Program-made: the position numbers and the translations under genes
Shown here: positions 1 to 48,472 of the stretch, piece by piece
How the letters are laid out: every line of letters starts with the position of its first letter
Numbering within the stretch: the first letter of the stretch is position 1
The notes under the pieces: model-generated
What the model saw: only the letters and a program-made list of their open reading frames with translations
What the model was told of the DNA's origin: nothing
Database searches by the model: none
Source: Synechococcales cyanobacterium M55_K2018_004
Lineage (GTDB): Bacteria; Cyanobacteriota; Cyanobacteriia; Elainellales; Elainellaceae
DNA: 48,472 bases
Reading direction: 5' to 3'
Assembly: GCA_015295905.1 (NCBI GenBank)
Contig: DVEB01000087.1
Span: 1-48,472, forward strand

Positions 1-79
1 CCCCAAAAGCCTCAATCCTCCGTGCGCGTCGCGCACGGAAAAGCAAGGGTTTCAGCTTATCCAGAATTCACGTCACGTT
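1..79 (-). mobile_element. Element P, copy A, cut by the window edge
   Basis: On the minus strand it starts with the left terminal repeat (AACGTG...GAATTC, then GGATAAGCTGAAACCC) and runs into the first hairpin, whose core GTGCGCG-A-CGCGCAC is intact. The outer stem has decayed: the two arms no longer match beyond the core. The second hairpin lies beyond the window start. The left end carries an extra ACGTG. It lies downstream of purD. Confidence 0.8.
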
Positions 80-3788: not shown

Positions 3789-3829
3789 GGCGCGGACAGT
3801 GTCATTGGTGTCTTAGCACGGTGTCATTC

Positions 3830-3985
3830 GCGTCAGTTCAGCTTAAGCGGGCTGTAGAGCGCTGCCTGGTACGCGGCGTCACACAATCTTTGATGTTCTC
3901 TGCACGACGCGCACAAAAAAGCAAGGGTTTTAGGGCACCGCGCTTGGCGCGGTGCCCTAAAACCCTCTTAACCAGAACTGACGTT
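3830..3985 (+). mobile_element. Element P, copy B
   Basis: The right half is well kept: the second hairpin TTTTAGGGCACC...GGTGCCCTAAAA, then the right terminal repeat ending GAACTGACGTT. The first hairpin has decayed. The left boundary (CGTCAGTTC...TTAAGCGGG) resembles an inverted right terminal repeat rather than a left one, suggesting rearrangement. The element ends 2 nt short of the stop codon of the TPR gene, in a convergent gene pair. Confidence 0.75.
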
Positions 3986-3987
3986 CA

Positions 3988-10875: not shown

Positions 10876-10898
10876 CCTTCACTAGCGGGATCCTAACT

Positions 10899-11020
10899 AA
10901 CGTGAATTCGGGATACGCTGAAATTCTTGCTGTTCCGTGCGCGACGCGCACGGAACAGCAAGAATTTTGGGTCACCGCGCACTGAAAATCAAGGGTTTCC
11001 ACTTATCCGCAATGCCCGTT
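10899..11020 (+). mobile_element. Element P, copy C (mosaic)
   Basis: Left terminal repeat AACGTGAATTCGGGATACG, then a perfect first hairpin with 23-nt arms around a single A. Its outer stem reads AAATTC/GAATTT where other copies have AAACCC/GGGTTT, a compensatory set of changes. The second hairpin is broken. The right end is an inverted left-type terminal repeat (GGATAAGTGGAAACCCTTG read on the minus strand). Lies in a convergent gene pair. Confidence 0.85.
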
Positions 11021-11094
11021 ACTGTAGTGGGCAGCACCGCTGGAGTGGATGCGCTGCACCCACTCCAGGCCATAGAAACGACTGCAACAGCGTG

Positions 11095-12598: not shown

Positions 12599-12644
12599 CC
12601 TCTATCAAAGCGACGACATAGCCTCTATCAAAGCGACGACATAG
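12599..12644. repeat. 23-bp tandem duplication at the 3' end of the UXS gene
   Basis: The unit at 12599-12621 is repeated exactly at 12622-12644. The second unit covers the last codons (SMSSL) and stop codon of the decarboxylase gene; the first lies just downstream. No mismatch between units, so the duplication is recent. Confidence 0.9.
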
Positions 12645-13590
12645 AGGGATAACGCACTGCAGCATCAGCGACCCGGGAACGGAAATCCTCAATAGTACGA
12701 GTTAAGCCTTCCTGCAAAGAAATGGTCGGTTGCCAGCCTAACCAAGTCTTGGCGCGGGTGATATCGGGTTGTCGCCGCCGGGGATCATCCTGAGGCAGTG
12801 GCTCAAATTTCAGAGCAACATCAGGATTCACCATCGTTTGGATAGTTTCCGCAAGTTGGCGGATGGTGTACTCCTCTGGATTACCGAGGTTAACAGGCCC
12901 TATATAGTCACCATTCATCAAACGCATGAGCCCTTCCACCAGGTCGGAAACATAGCAGAAGCTGCGGGTCTGGGAGCCATCGCCGTAAACTGTGAGCGGC
13001 TGTCCCCTGAGAGCCTGAACAACAAAATTGCTGACAACTCGCCCATCGTTTTCTAGCATTCGTGGTCCGTAGGTGTTGAAGATCCGGGCAACCCGAATTT
13101 CAACATCGTTTTGACGGTGGTAGTCAAAGGCCAAAGTCTCTGCAACCCGTTTTCCTTCGTCGTAGCAACTCCGGATTCCAATTGGGTTAACATTGCCTCG
13201 ATAATCCTCGGTCTGAGGATGGATTTCTGGATCGCCGTAGACTTCTGAGGTGGACGCCAGCAGAAAGCGAGCCTTGACTCGCTTTGCCAGTCCCAACATA
13301 TTCAGAGTACCCATGACATTGGTCTTAATTGTCTTGACTGGGTTGTATTGGTAATGCACTGGGGACGCCGGGCAAGCCAAGTGATAAATTTGCTGCACTT
13401 CTAGCCGAATAGGCTCGGTAATATCGTGGCGGATTAGCTCAAAGTTGGGGTGATTGAGCCAACGCAAAACATTGCGCTTATGCCCCGTATAGAAGTTGTC
13501 AAGACAAATCACGTCGTGCCCTTGATCCATCAGGCGATCAATGAGGTGAGAACCAATGAAACCTGCACCACCTGTCACTAAAATTCGCAT
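12628..13590 (-). CDS. uxs: UDP-glucuronate decarboxylase (UDP-xylose synthase)
   Basis: Short-chain dehydrogenase/epimerase-fold enzyme converting UDP-glucuronate to UDP-xylose with bound NAD+. Starting at the ATG of [16 protein letters not shown] it is 320 aa, the usual length for bacterial UXS. Rossmann TGGAGFIGS at 6-14, [20 protein letters not shown] at 71-90 (a UXS hallmark), the STSEVYGDP stretch at 113-121, catalytic Tyr143 and Lys147 in [12 protein letters not shown]. The open frame extends upstream to 13689, but that part is unlike the family. The gene precedes ugd. Its 3' end carries a tandem duplication. Confidence 0.94.
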
Positions 13591-14009
13591 AGCTACCTGC
13601 TTCCGATACCAGAAAACTGCAAAGAAAGAACATTGAGCAAACGAGGGGCATCGACAAATTTGCTGAAAACCATTCCCCAAACAAGCCATTCCCCAAACAG
13701 AGTATTGCTTGATCTAGGCTTAATTTCGGATGAGAGGTGCACAGAACGAGGATCTCATCCGAGCTTCACCCTGCCCATCAGCAACCCCCAAACAGAGATT
13801 AACTCAGTCAGAGAAGACCTGCATCTGCTTGACTGCTGCTAATCTACTGAAATTCTGAAATTTTGCATAACAACTTGTAATGAGAACTTAGCAGAGTTCT
13901 CGTAGGGATCCCGGGTATCTCGCTGGCATTCACTAAATCTTTACTTTGAGTTAGAGGTGTGGTAAACACTTACGTCACCTCTTCTCAAAAGAGAATCAAC
14001 CCTGCCCAA
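13591..14009. other. Intergenic region upstream of uxs
   Basis: Holds the uxs promoter region and a spaced inverted repeat CGGATGAGA (about 13728) / TCTCATCCG (about 13752) that could be a regulator site or a weak hairpin. No gene seen. Confidence 0.4.
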
Positions 14010-14125
14010 AACGTCCGTTTGGGTTCAGAGGATTTTGGGACACCACGCAGTGCTCCAAAATCGTTAATTTCTCGTGCGCAGCGCCCACAAACAATCACGG
14101 GGGTGAGATTTTCCGAATTCACGTT
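14010..14125 (-). mobile_element. Element P, copy D (decayed)
   Basis: Minus-strand orientation. Both terminal repeats are recognisable (AACGTGAATTCGGAAAAT at the right edge read in reverse; AACGTCCGTTTGGGTTCAG at the left edge). Both hairpins are heavily mutated. Flanks TGCCCAAAA and TTACCAAAA agree at 7 of 9 positions, consistent with an eroded 9-bp target duplication. It ends about 18 nt from the lepA stop codon. Confidence 0.75.
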
Positions 14126-14143
14126 ACCAAAAGATAATGAGGC

Positions 14144-16508: not shown

Positions 16509-17128
16509 GGGAGCTGCTGCAAGGTCGTTGCCGAGACGTAGGCAATCGACTTCAGTTAATCTTGGCCACCTGAGACGGAAGCAAATGCTTGGTGCACTCC
16601 AGTACTTCTGCCAATGGCCCAAAGGCCTTCCTAAAGGCATCGCTGACTGTTTTTGTGCAGGGCCCAAGGCGATGTTAGCTTGCTAGTGGAGCCTGCGACC
16701 GAGGGGCCAACATCCAACATATCCAGCGTTGGCAAGGGCTAGTCACCTGACTAAAGGGTTTGTATCCCTGTCCCCTTTTGCTGTATTTGTTGTTGACTGG
16801 TGTTGACTAGGACATTGACTCGAAACCAATCAGTGTGTTGTTTCGACTAGAAATCCAGAAGCAGCAGGGTGTTTTTTTGAGACGCTGGTCGTAATATGGA
16901 TAGGAAGTGCTCTAAGTGGGGCTTGCACCTCCAGCAGATCAGCCTCCCCGAATATTGCTTGTAGCTCTGCGGTGCGAACTGGAGAATGCTAAGGAGGCAT
17001 CTGGAAATTCTCTGCTGAAATAGCGACTCGACGAGAGTTCTTAGAGTTTAAGGGTTGCGTCTATCTAACCGCATCTTCGGTTGGCAGATGAATGAAGTTC
17101 AAACTTGATTTCTTGCGGTGATACGCTG
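16509..17128. other. Intergenic region with three TTGACT boxes
   Basis: 620 nt. TTGACT occurs at 16793, 16803 and 16815, at roughly helical spacing. It may be a set of -35-like elements or a binding-site array upstream of the histidine kinase gene. A T7 run lies at about 16872-16878. No convincing small gene or RNA. Confidence 0.4.
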
Positions 17129-18919
17129 ATGATCTCGCCCGGCGATCTCCCAATTTCAGTGTCTAAGTCAATTGACCTGACCATTCCTCGGCAGTTTGAC
17201 CCTTTTTTGCCAACGCCTCAGGCCGTTGATCTGATATTCACTCAGGATGCAGCGGGCTGTATTTTTTCATTTCATTGGCCTGAGGCCGACCAATTTGGGT
17301 GCAATCCTGCGCTAGTCGTTGGGCGATCGCTGGTCGATTTACCTGGTGTTTTTACCCCTGTGGCGATCGCTCCCTATCTGTTGCGGATCCAGCAGGTAAT
17401 CAACACTTTGGCTCCCCTGCAATTTCAGTATCCGTTCCGCTGTACTGACCAACTCGTCCAGTTCAATCTCATCCTTAGCCCAATCTTGCTTCCGAATGGG
17501 AGCGCGCAAATGGTAACCGTGCTAGGGCAATGTTTGGGAACTTGCACCGAAGAACAAGCCCTGCAAATGATTGACGCTCTATCTAGGCTGGATGTAACGT
17601 CCCTGGCAACGCTACCTTCCCCTGCCTCTAGTCGCTACCAAAAGTTGCTGACACAGGTTGCCTGGAACATCCGCCGCACCCTGGACCTAGAGACCATCTG
17701 GCAACAAACCGCCGATGGCTTGGGGCATGCCCTGGATGCAAGCCGCTGCCTCGTCTTTTTCTACATGCCAGGCGGAGAACAGGTCAAGGTTGTGGCCGAC
17801 TACCATCTGCCCCACCTCCCTTCGTTGCTGGGGCAAGAATATCAGCTCACTGAAGAACCTGAGATTTATCAAGTCTTGACCACGCTGAGACCGCTGCAGA
17901 TTGAACAGACGGCCCCTGGGCAAAATTTCACAACACGGCTCATTGTTGCGACAGGACATCAAGACCAGGCAAATGGCCTGATCTTACTAGAGCAGACTGA
18001 CCCCCTCAAGTGCTGGAGTGCAGAAGAAATTGATTTGATCCAGGAAATTGCGGACCAAGTCGGAACTGGTGTTGCTCATGCCACTCTGTTTGCAGCCAGT
18101 CGCGACCTCGCATCAAAGCTGCAACTAGCTAACGAGAATCTCGTGAAGCAACACCATGAACTAGAAGAAGCCCGCTGTCAGGCTGAAGCGGCCTCAAGGC
18201 TGAAGAGCGAGTTCTTGGCTAACACGTCCCATGAACTGCGGACCCCCTTGAACGGCATCATTGGCTTTCTCAAGCTGATCATGGATGGCATGGCAGACGA
18301 CCCCAAAGAGCAGGAAGAATTTATTCAGGAAGCTCACCGCTCTGCGGTACACCTACTTGACATCCTCAACGACATTCTAGACATCGCCAAAATTGAGGCA
18401 GGCAGGATGCAGCTCGACCGCAACCCGCTGAAACTAGATGACCTGCTGAACGATGTTGAGAAACTGACCCGTCCCCATGCTCAACAGAAGGGACTGAGCT
18501 TTGAAATTCGGATTCCTGCGACGCGGGATGACATCATTCTTCTAGGCAATTACCAACGATTGCTGCAGGTGATGCTGAACCTAGTCGGGAACGCAATCAA
18601 GTTCACCCACGAGGGAGGAATTACTATCTCCGCCGAGATTCTGCCAAAGACGACAGAAGATAGCGCCGGAATGGTCAAAATTAGCGTTGCGGATACAGGC
18701 ATTGGAGTATCCCTAGAAAATCAAGACCGATTGTTCCAGTCTTTCAGCCAGGTAGATAGTTCTCGCACCAGACCCTACGGTGGTACAGGGTTAGGATTGG
18801 CCATTTCTCAGAAACTTGTCGAGGCAATGGGAGGTGTTGTCAATTTCTACAGCTTGGGCGAGGGACTAGGGTCAACGGTGACATTTACAGTGCCGCTGTA
18901 CCAAGAGCCATTGATGTAG
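17129..18919 (+). CDS. PAS-GAF sensor histidine kinase
   Basis: 596 aa, no transmembrane segment, so a soluble sensor kinase. An N-terminal PAS-like region lies around 30-135 ([20 protein letters not shown]...), a GAF domain around 180-322, a short coiled coil at 325-358, and HisKA with phospho-acceptor His368 in [16 protein letters not shown]. The ATPase domain has N-box [10 protein letters not shown]1 ADTGIGV and G2 [12 protein letters not shown]. The GAF lacks an evident bilin-binding Cys-His pair, so it is probably not a cyanobacteriochrome. No receiver domain and no adjacent response regulator: an orphan kinase. ATG 17129 is used; a TTG at 17105 is possible. Confidence 0.92.
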
Positions 18920-18924
18920 TTTTT

Positions 18925-19048
18925 AATGTGAATTCGGGATAGGCTGAAACCCTCAATGTTCCGTGCGCGGCGCGCACGGAACATTGAGGGTTTTGGGGCA
19001 CCGCGCCAAGCGCGGTGCCCCAAAACCCTCTTAATCTGAACTGACGTT
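18925..19048 (+). mobile_element. Element P, copy E (complete)
   Basis: The best complete copy. Left repeat AATGTGAATTCGGGATAGG, first hairpin with 23-nt perfect arms around one G, second hairpin TTTTGGGGCACCGCGC-CAA-GCGCGGTGCCCCAAAA, right repeat ending GAACTGACGTT. Flanked by an exact 9-bp direct repeat TAGTTTTTA, a likely target duplication. It lies immediately after the histidine kinase stop codon, in a convergent arrangement with psbY. Confidence 0.9.
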
Positions 19049-19151
19049 AGTTTTTAGGCAAGGAGAGCGTTGACCGCATCTCAGAAGTGGCTGAAATTCG
19101 GACTATACTGCGTAAACAATCAGCGCAGCGCATTAATTCCAAAGATTTGAA

Positions 19152-19219: not shown

Positions 19220-19319
19220 ATAGCGCTACAGGCATAGGTAAAACAAAACGTTTTGTGGAAATCCCGTGCAGCAGGGTGTGCCACAAAACGGTTTTTACCT
19301 CATGAGCGCGTAGCGCTAT
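19220..19319. repeat. Palindromic repeat family Q, copy 1
   Basis: A 100-bp interrupted palindrome. Outer arms ATAGCGCTAC / GTAGCGCTAT are exact; inner arms AGGTAAA...AAACGTTTTGTGG pair with CCACAAAACGGTTTTTACCT with small interruptions. The right end (CATGAGCGCGTAGCGCTAT) is shared with the repeat at 45250-45400. Confidence 0.7.
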
Positions 19320-19342
19320 CCTTGATGGAAGAGTTCTAGGGT

Positions 19343-28753: not shown

Positions 28754-28877
28754 AGGAGGCATGAACAACGTAGTAGGATTCTGCCGAAGGCTTTTTGGAA
28801 GAGGATTTGCAAGGTCAAAGACGCTGCAAAATCAAAGACGCTGAAAAAAAATTGAGTCCTTCACTATTGGGTACTTT

Positions 28878-28956
28878 AACCTGAATTCAGGATAAGCTGA
28901 AACCCTTGATCTTCCGTGCGCGGCGCTCCAAACCCCGTTTCACCCGAACTGACGTT
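28878..28956 (+). mobile_element. Element P, copy G (internal deletion)
   Basis: 79 bp. Left end AACCTGAATTCAGGATAAGC and the 5' arm of hairpin 1 up to GTGCGCGGCG are joined directly to the 3' part of hairpin 2 (CTCCAAACCCC), then the right end CCCGAACTGACGTT. The break lies between the two hairpin apexes, as expected from a slippage deletion. Located between the M16 and TenA genes. Confidence 0.8.
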
Positions 28957-32300: not shown

Positions 32301-32417
32301 AGCATTAAGTAAGCTGAAGGCCTTGATTTTCTCGGTGCGACGCACCCAGAAAATCAAAGGGTTTGGGGCGCTGCCCACCGCGCGGTGCCCAAAATTCGCT
32401 TAGCCCGAACTGACGTT
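32301..32417 (+). mobile_element. Element P, copy H
   Basis: Left end worn (TAAGTAAGCTGAAGG remains). Hairpin 1 pairs CCTTGATTTTCTCGGTGCG with CGCACCCAGAAAATCAAAGG: the stem differs from other copies at several positions, but in matched pairs. Hairpin 2 is weakened. The right end GCTTAGCCCGAACTGACGTT lies inside the GHL10 reading frame and supplies its stop codon. Confidence 0.85.
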
Positions 32418-33605
32418 ATGGGTAACTGTGGGGCGTTGGGCAGGGTGAGGAAACATGGCGTGGAGGGCGGCATCTCGTCCATTCAGAGTTTCGTAAAAGA
32501 AGAAAGACACCCCAGCAAACCGGCGATCGCGCACCGCGTTTAGTTTTGCGGCAATCAAGCGGGTATCGATCGGAGGTTCCTCAATCAGTCCAGTCAGAAT
32601 ACCAACTCCGACAGGAATGTGAGTGCGGGCCTGTTGCACCTCTGGGCGATCGAGTTCCTGAGTGAACGCATCGAGATGGCGACGATAGACCTGCAGGATC
32701 AGTTCTTCCACATAGCCCCGGCGTTCCCAATTGCCCCAGTCCTGCAAAAAGTTTTGATAGGCAAACTCGCGGCTGTTGGGGGAGAGAGCAATAATGCAGT
32801 CACTTTTCCTGGCTTTAACTGTCTCAAACACTTGGGCCATCATTCGAGTCATCTGGTCGGCCCGCCAGCGCATCCACTCCGGGTCTTTGGGATTGCGTGG
32901 GGGTGAGCTGCCGTTGTGGGATCTGCGATAAAGTTGCACAGTCAGCGGGTCGTAGCCCATCTCAATCGGCAAGCCAAAGTGGTCATCGAGTTGGATGCCA
33001 TCAATCTCGTACTCACTCACAATTTCCCCGATCAACCCAACGATGAGCTGCTGCACCTGCGGGTGGAAGGGGTTGAGCCAGACGCGGGGATATTTGCCCT
33101 GCATCCATACGGTGGTGCCATCCTGACGGCGACTGAGCCAGTCTGGGTGACGCAGCGCCAACTCTGAGTCTACCGGGGCCATCAGGCCAAACTCAAACCA
33201 AGGCACGACCGCTAATCCCCGCTGGTGCCCCAGTTGCACCACTTCTTGCAACATATCTCGCTGCTGAAAGCCAGGGTGTGGATCGACGGGATACCCAGTG
33301 ACCTCGGCAGCAATGTTGCTGGGGTAGAGCGTATAGCCCCAGTTCCAAACCGTAGGATAGACGGTGTTGAAGTTCAGTCGGGCTAGGCGGTGCAGGGCGC
33401 GATCGAGGTGGCGACGGGAGAATAGAACATCGCTGTCGATGTTGGTCAGCCAAACTCCCCGGAGTTCGGGAGATGAGGTCTGAGCGGTGGCAAGCAAGGG
33501 AGAGCGGAGGGACAAGGCGATCGCCACTCCCAGAAAAAGGCCCAGCAGCATGGAGAGACATCGTCTGGGTGATTTACAAATGCTTTGCAGGCGTTTAGGG
33601 TTCAC
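32400..33605 (-). CDS. Glycoside hydrolase-like protein (GHL10/YngK-type)
   Basis: 401 aa with a signal peptide or anchor (LSMLLGLFLGVAIALSL, mature part after ATAQ). A TIM-barrel domain of the GHL10 family (PF02638 type): ELRGVWLTNIDSDVLFSRR, LNFNTVYPTVWNWGYTLYPS, LAVVPWFEFGLMAP, VWLNPFHPQVQQLIVGLIGE, EIDGIQLDDHFGLP, IALSPNSREFAYQNF. The Asp pair in IQLDDHFG is the likely active-site region. Such enzymes act on cell-wall or extracellular glycans; substrate uncertain. The last five codons and TAA (AAC GTC AGT TCG GGC TAA) are the terminal repeat of element P, so the natural C-terminus was replaced by an insertion. Confidence 0.88.
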   Translation of the reverse strand: MNPKRLQSICKSPRRCLSMLLGLFLGVAIALSLRSPLLATAQTSSPELRGVWLTNIDSDVLFSRRHLDRALHRLARLNFNTVYPTVWNWGYTLYPSNIAAEVTGYPVDPHPGFQQRDMLQEVVQLGHQRGLAVVPWFEFGLMAPVDSELALRHPDWLSRRQDGTTVWMQGKYPRVWLNPFHPQVQQLIVGLIGEIVSEYEIDGIQLDDHFGLPIEMGYDPLTVQLYRRSHNGSSPPRNPKDPEWMRWRADQMTRMMAQVFETVKARKSDCIIALSPNSREFAYQNFLQDWGNWERRGYVEELILQVYRRHLDAFTQELDRPEVQQARTHIPVGVGILTGLIEEPPIDTRLIAAKLNAVRDRRFAGVSFFFYETLNGRDAALHAMFPHPAQRPTVTHNVSSG

Positions 33606-33630: not shown

Positions 33631-33910
33631 TTTACGGTGCTACACGCTCATGCTGTCAAACGCGTTTTGTGGGAAACCCTGCTGCGTGGGGTTTCCCACA
33701 AGACGCGTTGTCCTAACCGATGCGCGTAGCGCTGTAGCAGCAACGTTCACGGTGCATCCTTAGTTTGAGCAGGAGATAGACTGCATCAGCCCAGCATCCT
33801 TCAGATTGTGGTGACCGCTTGAGGGGGCAGACTGAAGTCAGCACAACAACCGAGCACGACACGCAATTCCCCCACAAGCTACGTAGGTTTGCAGCTTTCA
33901 GCACCGTAAA
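33631..33910. repeat. 280-bp segment with 11-bp terminal inverted repeats, containing palindrome family Q
   Basis: TTTACGGTGCT (33631-33641) and AGCACCGTAAA (33900-33910) are exact complements. Within it, 33660-33710 is a strong hairpin (ACGCGTTTTGTGGGAAACCC pairing with GGGTTTCCCACAAGACGCGT) and GCGCGTAGCGC follows, as in the repeats at 19220 and 45250. Non-coding in all frames. It could be a non-autonomous mobile element. Confidence 0.5.
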
Positions 33911-39552: not shown

Positions 39553-39556
39553 AGGT

Positions 39557-39696
39557 AACAGCAGTTCTAGTGAAGCGGATTTAGGGACACCGCGCCGGGC
39601 GCGGTGCCCTAAGTTCTCGATTTCCGTGTGTGCGGATTTCCGTGTGTGCGTCGCGCTCGGCACATCAAGGGTTTCAGCTTGTCCGAAATGCCCGTT
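39557..39696 (-). mobile_element. Element P, copy I2 (mosaic)
   Basis: Contains hairpin 2 (TTAGGGACACCGCGCCGGGC with GCGCGGTGCCCTAA), a short tandem duplication of ATTTCCGTGTGTGCG inside hairpin 1, and a left-type end with AACGGGCATTTCGGACAAGC. The AACGGGCAT variant of the end also occurs in copy C (11020). Confidence 0.65.
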
Positions 39697-39743
39697 TGAG
39701 TAGGCTGTGCCCACTAAAGTATCCCACTTTCAACCGATTGAGC

Positions 39744-42317: not shown

Positions 42318-42442
42318 AAGATGAATTCCGGATAAGCTGAAGCTCCTGATGTTCCGTGCGCGTTGCACACGGAACATCAGGGGTTTTGGGGCACTGCGCT
42401 GAGCGCGGTGCCCCAAAACCCTGCTTAACCAGAACTGACGTT
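42318..42442 (+). mobile_element. Element P, copy J (complete)
   Basis: Left end AAGATGAATTCCGGATAAGC, hairpin 1 with CTGATGTTCCGTGCGCG / CACACGGAACATCAG (apex mismatched), hairpin 2 TTTTGGGGCACTGCGC...GCGCGGTGCCCCAAAA, right end CTTAACCAGAACTGACGTT. The flanks TGCTGAAGA and TGCTTATGT agree only partly, so a target duplication is possible but eroded. Confidence 0.85.
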
Positions 42443-42961: not shown

Positions 42962-43085
42962 AACGTGAATTCCGGATAAACTACAATCTTTGATGTTCTG
43001 TGCGCGTCGCGCACGGAACATCAAAGGTTGCGGGGCACTGGGCGAGCGCGATGCCCCGCAACCCGCTTAACCAGAACTGACGTAA
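42962..43085 (+). mobile_element. Element P, copy K (complete)
   Basis: Left end AACGTGAATTCCGGATAAAC. Hairpin 1 arms are CAATCTTTGATGTTCTGTGC and GCACGGAACATCAAAGGTTG around GCGTCGC. Their two differences are T opposite G, that is, wobble pairs. Hairpin 2 is TTGCGGGGCA...TGCCCCGCAA, changed in matched pairs from the usual TTTTGGGGCA. The right end CTTAACCAGAACTGACGT lacks the final T. It lies just after the tRNA. Confidence 0.85.
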
Positions 43086-45252: not shown

Positions 45253-45404
45253 ACCACGGCAACACATCAGCGGCGCAAAAGGCGCTCTGTAAGGGCGTTT
45301 TGCAGCACAATCGAGGAAATCAATCCAACCCTCAGGATTTCATACCGACTCCGTCGGTTATTGAGAACGCGGTTTACATCATGAGCGCGTAGCGCCATAG
45401 ACGT
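45253..45404. repeat. Repeat with family Q end
   Basis: Begins CACATCAGCGGCGC and ends CATCATGAGCGCGTAGCGCC; the end matches the repeat at 19220 over about 20 nt. The inner part has short arms only (ACCGACTCCGTCGGT) and differs from the other copies. It lies between the deacetylase gene and element P copy L. Confidence 0.5.
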
Positions 45405-45410
45405 TAATTT

Positions 45411-45534
45411 AACGAGAATTCGGGATAAGCTGAAATCCTTGCTGTTCCGTGCGCGACGCGCACGGAACAGCAAGGATTTTGGGTCACCGCGCCCGGCGCG
45501 GTGACCCAAAACCCACTTAACCAGAACTGACGTT
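45411..45534 (+). mobile_element. Element P, copy L (complete)
   Basis: AACGAGAATTCGGGATAAGC, hairpin 1 with perfect 23-nt arms around one A (stem AAATCC/GGATTT), hairpin 2 TTTTGGGTCACCGCGC...GCGCGGTGACCCAAAA and right end CTTAACCAGAACTGACGTT. Flanked by TTAATTTAA on both sides, a likely 9-bp target duplication. The match extends to 13 nt because the left flank also carries GACG. Confidence 0.9.
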
Positions 45535-45686
45535 AATTTAAGTCCCACATCCAAAATGCCTTGAGCTTGCCCACACCAAACCGGACAAAATCCGGACAAA
45601 ATAGTGCAGAATAGGCGCAACAGTTTTCAATCCTGGTTCGACTGCGATCGCTCCAGGGAGTCATGCAGTTGCGAGGAGTTGCCGAC

Positions 45687-48098: not shown

Positions 48099-48419
48099 AG
48101 CAACCTTTGAAGCTGGGGATAAGGAAAACTCAGTTGACGGCCCCCTGATGTCAATCGTGTTCTGGTGGAGACCGATTCAGGGGATGGCTTGGGTCAGTTC
48201 AGTGTCAATTCATGCGTGAGCACTCGGTTAAGACATCAGGTCGGCACCCACTCCTCATCAGGCCAGTGCACCTGATGCAAGCGCGCCCGACTCAACGCTG
48301 GTTGCCTGCCCCTACACGCCAATTTCTGATGGGCGATCGCTCCTATTCTACTGAACCTTTTTCGGCCATAGGCAAGGTCAGCCCCCCTACACGATGTCGA
48401 GGATGCACCCAGCTACTTT
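48099..48419. other. Intergenic region at the window end
   Basis: Upstream of the DUF928 gene, ending at element P. No convincing gene, RNA or hairpin. An open frame at 48212-48421 has no protein-like features. Confidence 0.4.
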
Positions 48420-48472
48420 AACGTGAATTCGGGATAAGCTGAAACCCTTGCTGTTCCGTGCGCGACGCGCAC
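48420..48472 (+). mobile_element. Element P, copy M, cut by the window edge
   Basis: Left end AACGTGAATTCGGGATAAGC, then GAAACCCTTGCTG and the first arm of hairpin 1 through CGACGCGCAC. It matches copies C and L. The rest lies outside the window. Confidence 0.85.

Follow-up and report, generated by a model that had tools for sequence, protein, structure and literature searches.

Element P in the window

The stretch of DNA analysed here, called the window below, is the entire contig C136 (48,472 nucleotides) of genome G000 (5.01 Mb, 362 contigs). A histidine-kinase ORF at 17105-18919 is followed on the forward strand by a full copy of a dispersed repeat, Element P, at 18926-19047. The flanks of this copy carry the 9-bp target duplication TAGTTTTTA in exact form (18917-18925 and 19048-19056), and the TAG stop codon of the ORF falls inside the left duplication. 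Element P is about 122 bp long and follows the plan proposed in an earlier, sequence-only reading of this DNA: left end, hairpin 1, hairpin 2 and right end. In the copy at 18926, hairpin 1 (18947-18993, forward strand) has 23-bp arms, AAACCCTCAATGTTCCGTGCGCG and CGCGCACGGAACATTGAGGGTTT, around one central base, while hairpin 2 (18988-19028, forward strand) includes an outer GGGTTT/AAACCC arm that it has in common with hairpin 1. The two hairpins overlap at GGGTTT and their pairings are mutually exclusive.

Three further full copies, also on the forward strand, lie at 42319-42441, 42963-43083 and 45412-45533, so that all four copies named in that reading are present, with refined limits. The first no longer has an exact target duplication; the last has a 7-bp duplication, TAATTTA, at 45405-45411 and 45534-45540. 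The reading had also counted about ten decayed or partial copies, and an nhmmer profile search finds about nine more in the window. Two are cut by the contig itself, at its start (1-75, reverse strand) and at its end (48418-48472, forward strand). Decayed copies lie at 14008-14126 and 39556-39697 on the reverse strand and at 32310-32419 on the forward strand, and another, with an internal deletion, at 28876-28956 on the forward strand. The region 3828-3987 contains either an overlapping pair of decayed copies or one rearranged copy (3885-3987 on the forward strand, 3828-3933 on the reverse strand), and a rearranged copy at 10898-11021 consists of a left end, hairpin 1, part of hairpin 2 and then an inverted left end. 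The stem words on which the earlier argument was built are correctly quoted; the partial copy at 10898 is the source of AAATTC/GAATTT, and that at 3885 of AGGGCACC. The further statement that the arm differences in the copy at 42963-43083 are two T opposite G, and tolerable in RNA, holds for hairpin 1. Hairpin 2 of this copy contains, in addition, C-A and G-G mismatches that would not be tolerated in an RNA stem, and the claim is thus limited to hairpin 1.

Two other repeats were seen in the window. A second dispersed hairpin family, with stem TTTTGTGGGAAACCC...GGGTTTCCCACAAAA and end CATGAGCGCGTAGCGCTAT, occurs at about 19230-19320, 33640-33735 and 45366-45398, and stretches resembling it follow several Element P copies in other contigs. 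Separately, a perfect 23-bp tandem duplication, CCTCTATCAAAGCGACGACATAG, at 12599-12644 overlaps the end of the ORF at 12628-13689.

Abundance, anatomy and derived forms

An initial search gave 920 candidate places for Element P in G000. A sample of 903 kb (0.90 Mb) from this genome yielded 224 non-overlapping places at E<1e-5 and 115 full copies, which extrapolates to roughly 600 full copies across the genome, a figure that is probably slightly high since the sampled contigs were picked partly for containing matches. The 12-base right end, GAACTGACGTTA, occurs 259 times in G000, compared with a single occurrence of the reversed control. Copies are strongly intergenic, with 188 of 197 lying outside ORFs longer than 150 aa while coding sequence, by a crude call, makes up about 80% of the total. 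Nearly half of the G000 contig termini that were examined (35 of 76) fall inside copies, both ends of the window among them, and Element P thus largely determines the fragmentation of the assembly.

In general, hairpin 1 consists of 23-bp arms and hairpin 2 of 17-bp arms, each around one central base. The order of the outer segments is left AAACCC, middle GGGTTT and right AAACCC, and the middle segment can pair with AAACCC on either side. The left and right outer segments are therefore direct repeats of each other. Genome G003, which belongs to another genus and has the same plan, favours one of these pairings: the middle segment pairs with the right one in 30 of 30 copies, and the left pairing is often incomplete. 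Single-strand folds of the copies are far beyond those of dinucleotide shuffles (z = -5.6 to -12.3).

Several derived forms occur alongside the full element. In 46-bp forms, left end-AAACCCTC-right end, both hairpins are missing and exactly one outer segment is left (L069:11375, L081:6726, L051:11818, L117, L118, L212); some of these have exact target duplications, including two of three in the sample. They may well have arisen by deletion between the two direct repeats that flank the palindromes. Palindromic forms, in which hairpin 1 lies between a left end and an inverted left end (LE-H1-LE') or hairpin 2 between an inverted right end and a right end (RE'-H2-RE), are also found; they have no target duplications and look like products of recombination.

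Element P as an IS982-type MITE

Element P is a non-coding, multicopy MITE with ends of the IS982-family type, an identity that, like the target duplications, the sequence-only reading had not recognized. Its 122 bp leave no room for a transposase gene, and its two ends are inverted repeats of each other, though imperfect ones: ACGTGAATTCGGGATAAG at the left and, read inward, ACGTCAGTTCTGGTTAAG at the right. Exact flanking direct repeats of 5-9 bp accompany 27% of the full copies in G000, as against 0.5% when the right flanks are shuffled, and the first base of these duplications is T in 30 of 30 cases and the last is A in 26 of 30. In two relatives the duplications are better preserved: exact repeats of 6-8 bp flank 39 of 47 copies in G015 (the cyanobacterium Kaiparowitsia implicata GSE-PSE-MK54-09C) and 27 of 30 in G003.

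The link to IS982 comes from elements with the same ends and a gene between them. In G015 these ends bound an element of 981 bp with an ORF that the IS982 model NF033520 recognizes (E=1.3e-43). In genome G021, ACGTGAGTACGGGATAAG and ACGTCAGTACGGGTTAAG enclose an IS982 transposase of 292 aa that is intact, and the duplication is TAGCTA. Furthermore, a 30-base query of the left end matches at 25 of 25 bases directly outside the gene of an IS1592 (IS982-like) element on an Actinobacillus plasmid; a distant search of plasmids with a whole Element P copy gave no match. Of 291 genomes belonging to the same class, 121 contain the exact end pattern, and the reversed control is absent from the matches listed.

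IS982 partners occur in G015 and G021. In G000, a search for an IS982 transposase gave no match above the model cut-off, and the G021 transposase had only a weak match of 32 aa there. With no recognisable transposase in G000, the family is probably orphaned in this genome, or its partner lies on contigs outside those searched. A partner present in the same genome is usual for MITEs, yet an old MITE family does not need one. Two other sources of a partner were considered and set aside: the DDE_Tnp_1 (PF01609) genes of G000 have unlike ends, save for one decayed Element P-like copy near C174, and, of the orphan left ends in 0.9 Mb, which could have marked the edge of an autonomous element, those that were inspected proved to be truncated, hairpin-less, decayed or palindromic copies. 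Judged from its ends and duplications, Element P appears to have been mobilized in trans by an IS982-family transposase, which would recognize the ends and duplicate a target of 6-9 bp of the form T...A.

G015 also contains three near-identical IS982 copies, L136 (G015:C35:19437-20141), L138 and L135, all interrupted by an identical set of three in-frame stops. Two of the three have both ends, and neither showed an exact target duplication. They may represent a broken element that spread passively, or the copies may have arisen via duplication.

Among 60 genomes, six match the Element P query, G000 itself included. G015 and G003 have the same double-hairpin plan, and in G003 the stems are largely different from those of G000 and are still paired. 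G009, G037 and G271 have only the ends in common with Element P and their interiors are unrelated to it (L102, L107, L101, L106, L224-L230), so the IS982-type ends mark a wide class of MITEs in which the double-hairpin interior is one lineage. The single-contig-like genomes G154 and G178, considered together with G271 as better assemblies in which to examine the loop flips, likewise carry IS982-type ends around other interiors.

Covariation of the stems

The sequence-only reading held that the stems differ between copies and pair nonetheless, and this proved true beyond both chance and shared ancestry. Across 110 aligned full copies, the inner pairs of hairpin 1 are Watson-Crick in 86.5% of cases, compared with 75.5% when partners are shuffled, and the pairs of hairpin 2 in 85.0% compared with 78.6%; pairing exceeds the shuffles in every helix. 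To account for ancestry, changes were placed on a tree, with ancestral states assigned by parsimony on short sequences and a null in which partners are re-dealt among columns of the same arm. Hairpin 1 shows 81 double changes where the null gives 25.9 (maximum 43 of 100 re-pairings). The signal in hairpin 2 is weaker, with 26 double changes against 12.7 (maximum 20).

Young copies show the same pattern. Those of G015 have 13 paired doubles where about 1.2 are expected, together with 12 single breaks, and those of G003 have nine where about 1.1 are expected, so that paired doubles are about as frequent as single breaks. Some changes affect all three arms at once, as in L190, where the three segments read AAAGCC/GGCTTT/AAAGCC, and in L174. 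In G015 there are also copies with an insertion in one arm of hairpin 2 that is matched in the other (L193). The covariation of Element P stems is thus real, and the suggestion that the fold rather than the sequence is kept is borne out both across copies and, through the stems of G003, across genera.

Origin of the compensatory changes

Two causes had been offered for this pattern, namely selection on RNA structure and arm-to-arm correction during replication. Our analysis supports the latter: Element P is probably a MITE moved in trans by an IS982-family transposase, with 6-9 bp T...A duplications, in which stem compensation results from copying between the arms at the level of DNA. During replication, one arm of a hairpin would be copied from the complementary arm by template switching, most plausibly on the part of the polymerase, and a mutation on one side would thus be either erased or passed on to the partner arm. 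A switch that crosses the centre of the palindrome would leave the loop inverted. Because point mutations are mostly transitions while inversion gives the complement, the central base can be used as a marker of such events. Complement swaps account for 25 of the 38 changes inferred at the centre of hairpin 1, whereas in the ends they account for 59 of 375 (p=1e-10); at the centre of hairpin 2 the figure is 13 of 29 against the same reference (p=4e-4). In G015 the central base of hairpin 2 is the most frequent sole difference between two copies. Loops of three nucleotides are found in both orientations among near-identical young copies (GAA/TTC, GTT/AAC, TTT/AAA). In G003, which has many such loops, most loop types co-occur with their own reverse complement, and some copies with intact target duplications differ solely in the orientation of the loop. 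Together with the paired doubles, which are about as common as the singles in young copies, the matched indels and the three-way changes, these inversions argue for arm-to-arm copying. Arm doubles and loop flips do not share branches of the tree in excess of expectation (p=0.44). Published work shows that template switching yields both homogenized arms and inverted spacers; arm change and loop inversion in one event are rare even in clear cases, and in a yeast study nine of ten inversions occurred without a change in the arms (PMC8604942, PMC8794818).

If Element P were instead transcribed and its hairpins kept for a function in RNA, for example as a terminator, stabilizer or regulator, the strong folds and the covariation would fit, as would the location of 49 of 145 classified copies between convergent genes, in gaps that make up about 16% of intergenic bases. 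However, an RNA stem tolerates G.U and not A.C, so selection on one strand should leave more G.T than A.C, and the two are close overall (217 and 198): an excess in the inner stem of hairpin 1 alone (120 to 72) is set against the opposite leaning of hairpin 2 (70 to 94). Change is as rapid in the stems (11.2 events per column) as in the unpaired ends (10.1), mismatches rise from 6% in the freshest copies to 28% in the most decayed, orientation with respect to flanking tandem genes is unbiased (40 to 35), and the complement swaps at the loop centres are left unexplained. An Rfam search of the window matched a tRNA only, with no match for Element P. Selection on RNA structure is thus not supported and is very unlikely as the cause; the enrichment between convergent genes fits the loss of insertions in promoters, and Element P may act as a terminator at some sites as a side effect. 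The high pairing of young copies (about 99%) and its decay in old ones are also what would be expected if pairing mattered for movement, such that well-paired copies move better and only compensated versions spread. Against such selection at the level of transposition, single breaks in young copies of G015 are close to the number that the ends predict (12, against about 15), though in G003 they are fewer than predicted (10, against about 24). Such selection would not invert loops, and the 46-bp forms with exact target duplications, like other IS982-ended elements that lack such hairpins, show that the hairpins are unnecessary for movement. We thus regard this selection as an improbable explanation in itself, although it could act together with arm copying.

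Exchange between copies offers another route to both kinds of change. Gene conversion, including inverted alignment of hairpins, could spread arm changes and turn loops, and the hundreds of similar copies in both orientations, the recombinant-looking LE-H1-LE' and RE'-H2-RE forms and the recurrence of certain paired changes in different copies would all be in keeping with it. It nevertheless seems unlikely as the main source, as some paired changes are private to one young copy (L190, L174, L207) and have no obvious donor among the sampled copies. The orientation of loops was read from draft assemblies, and the genomes bearing the element are multi-contig drafts in which, for G000, the termini so often lie inside copies; loop flips might thus be artefacts of assembling palindromes. 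However, the contig breaks typically lie some 55 bases inside the element, which suggests that the assembly word is longer than the hairpins (47 and 35 bp) and that the loops are tied to unique flanks. Flipping of the loop by the assembler is thus unlikely; moreover, flips occur in three independently assembled genomes and the arm doubles would not be accounted for, and we consider it highly improbable that artefacts explain the flips. Finally, it is conceivable, though doubtful, that a folded single-stranded or hairpin intermediate of transposition has its arms recopied and its loop turned, each jump thereby proofreading the palindromes. If true, palindrome proofreading during transposition would add a new aspect to the biology of DDE transposons.

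Comparison with known systems

As regards its mobility, Element P is of a known kind, an IS982-type MITE, and it is its double-hairpin interior that is unusual and new as a variant. Like the IS1592-like insertion sequences of the IS982 family and the MITEs derived from them, it has ends of the type AACSTSARTTCGGGWTAAG, which take one form on the left (GGGATAAG) and another on the right (GGGTTAAG), short duplications with A/T edges, no coding capacity and many intergenic copies. What sets it apart from them is that, in place of a shrunken transposase gene, it contains two conserved hairpins that share an arm, and that it is present in very many copies in a genome with no detectable partner gene. 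Nezha is another short MITE of cyanobacteria (Zhou et al. 2008, via PMC10969869).

A parallel for the stems is template switching at quasipalindromes, which similarly gives homogenized arms and inverted spacers, including ttc/gaa in yeast genes (PMC8604942, PMC8794818). The published cases concern single genes or rRNA genes, and loop inversions are rare in rRNA (PMC8604942, PMC8794818). In contrast, Element P is mobile and multicopy, inverted loops are common in it, and many of its copies can be recognized as young by their intact target duplications.

REP/BIME and ERIC-type palindromes are likewise dispersed, intergenic and palindromic, REPs proper being repeats of 20-40 bp. The target duplications and IS982 ends, however, place Element P with the MITEs. 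Mitochondrial double-hairpin elements also combine two hairpins in a dispersed mobile repeat; Element P differs from them in being bacterial and in its IS982 ends and exact target duplications, and the likeness meant here is one of design.

Covariation is the usual proof of a selected RNA structure. In Element P, strong covariation is better explained by a mutational process acting on DNA, and the family is thus useful as a negative control when bacterial repeats are tested for covariation. Furthermore, with hundreds of copies, many of which have intact target duplications, it allows arm copying and loop inversion to be measured in nature and their rates to be compared.
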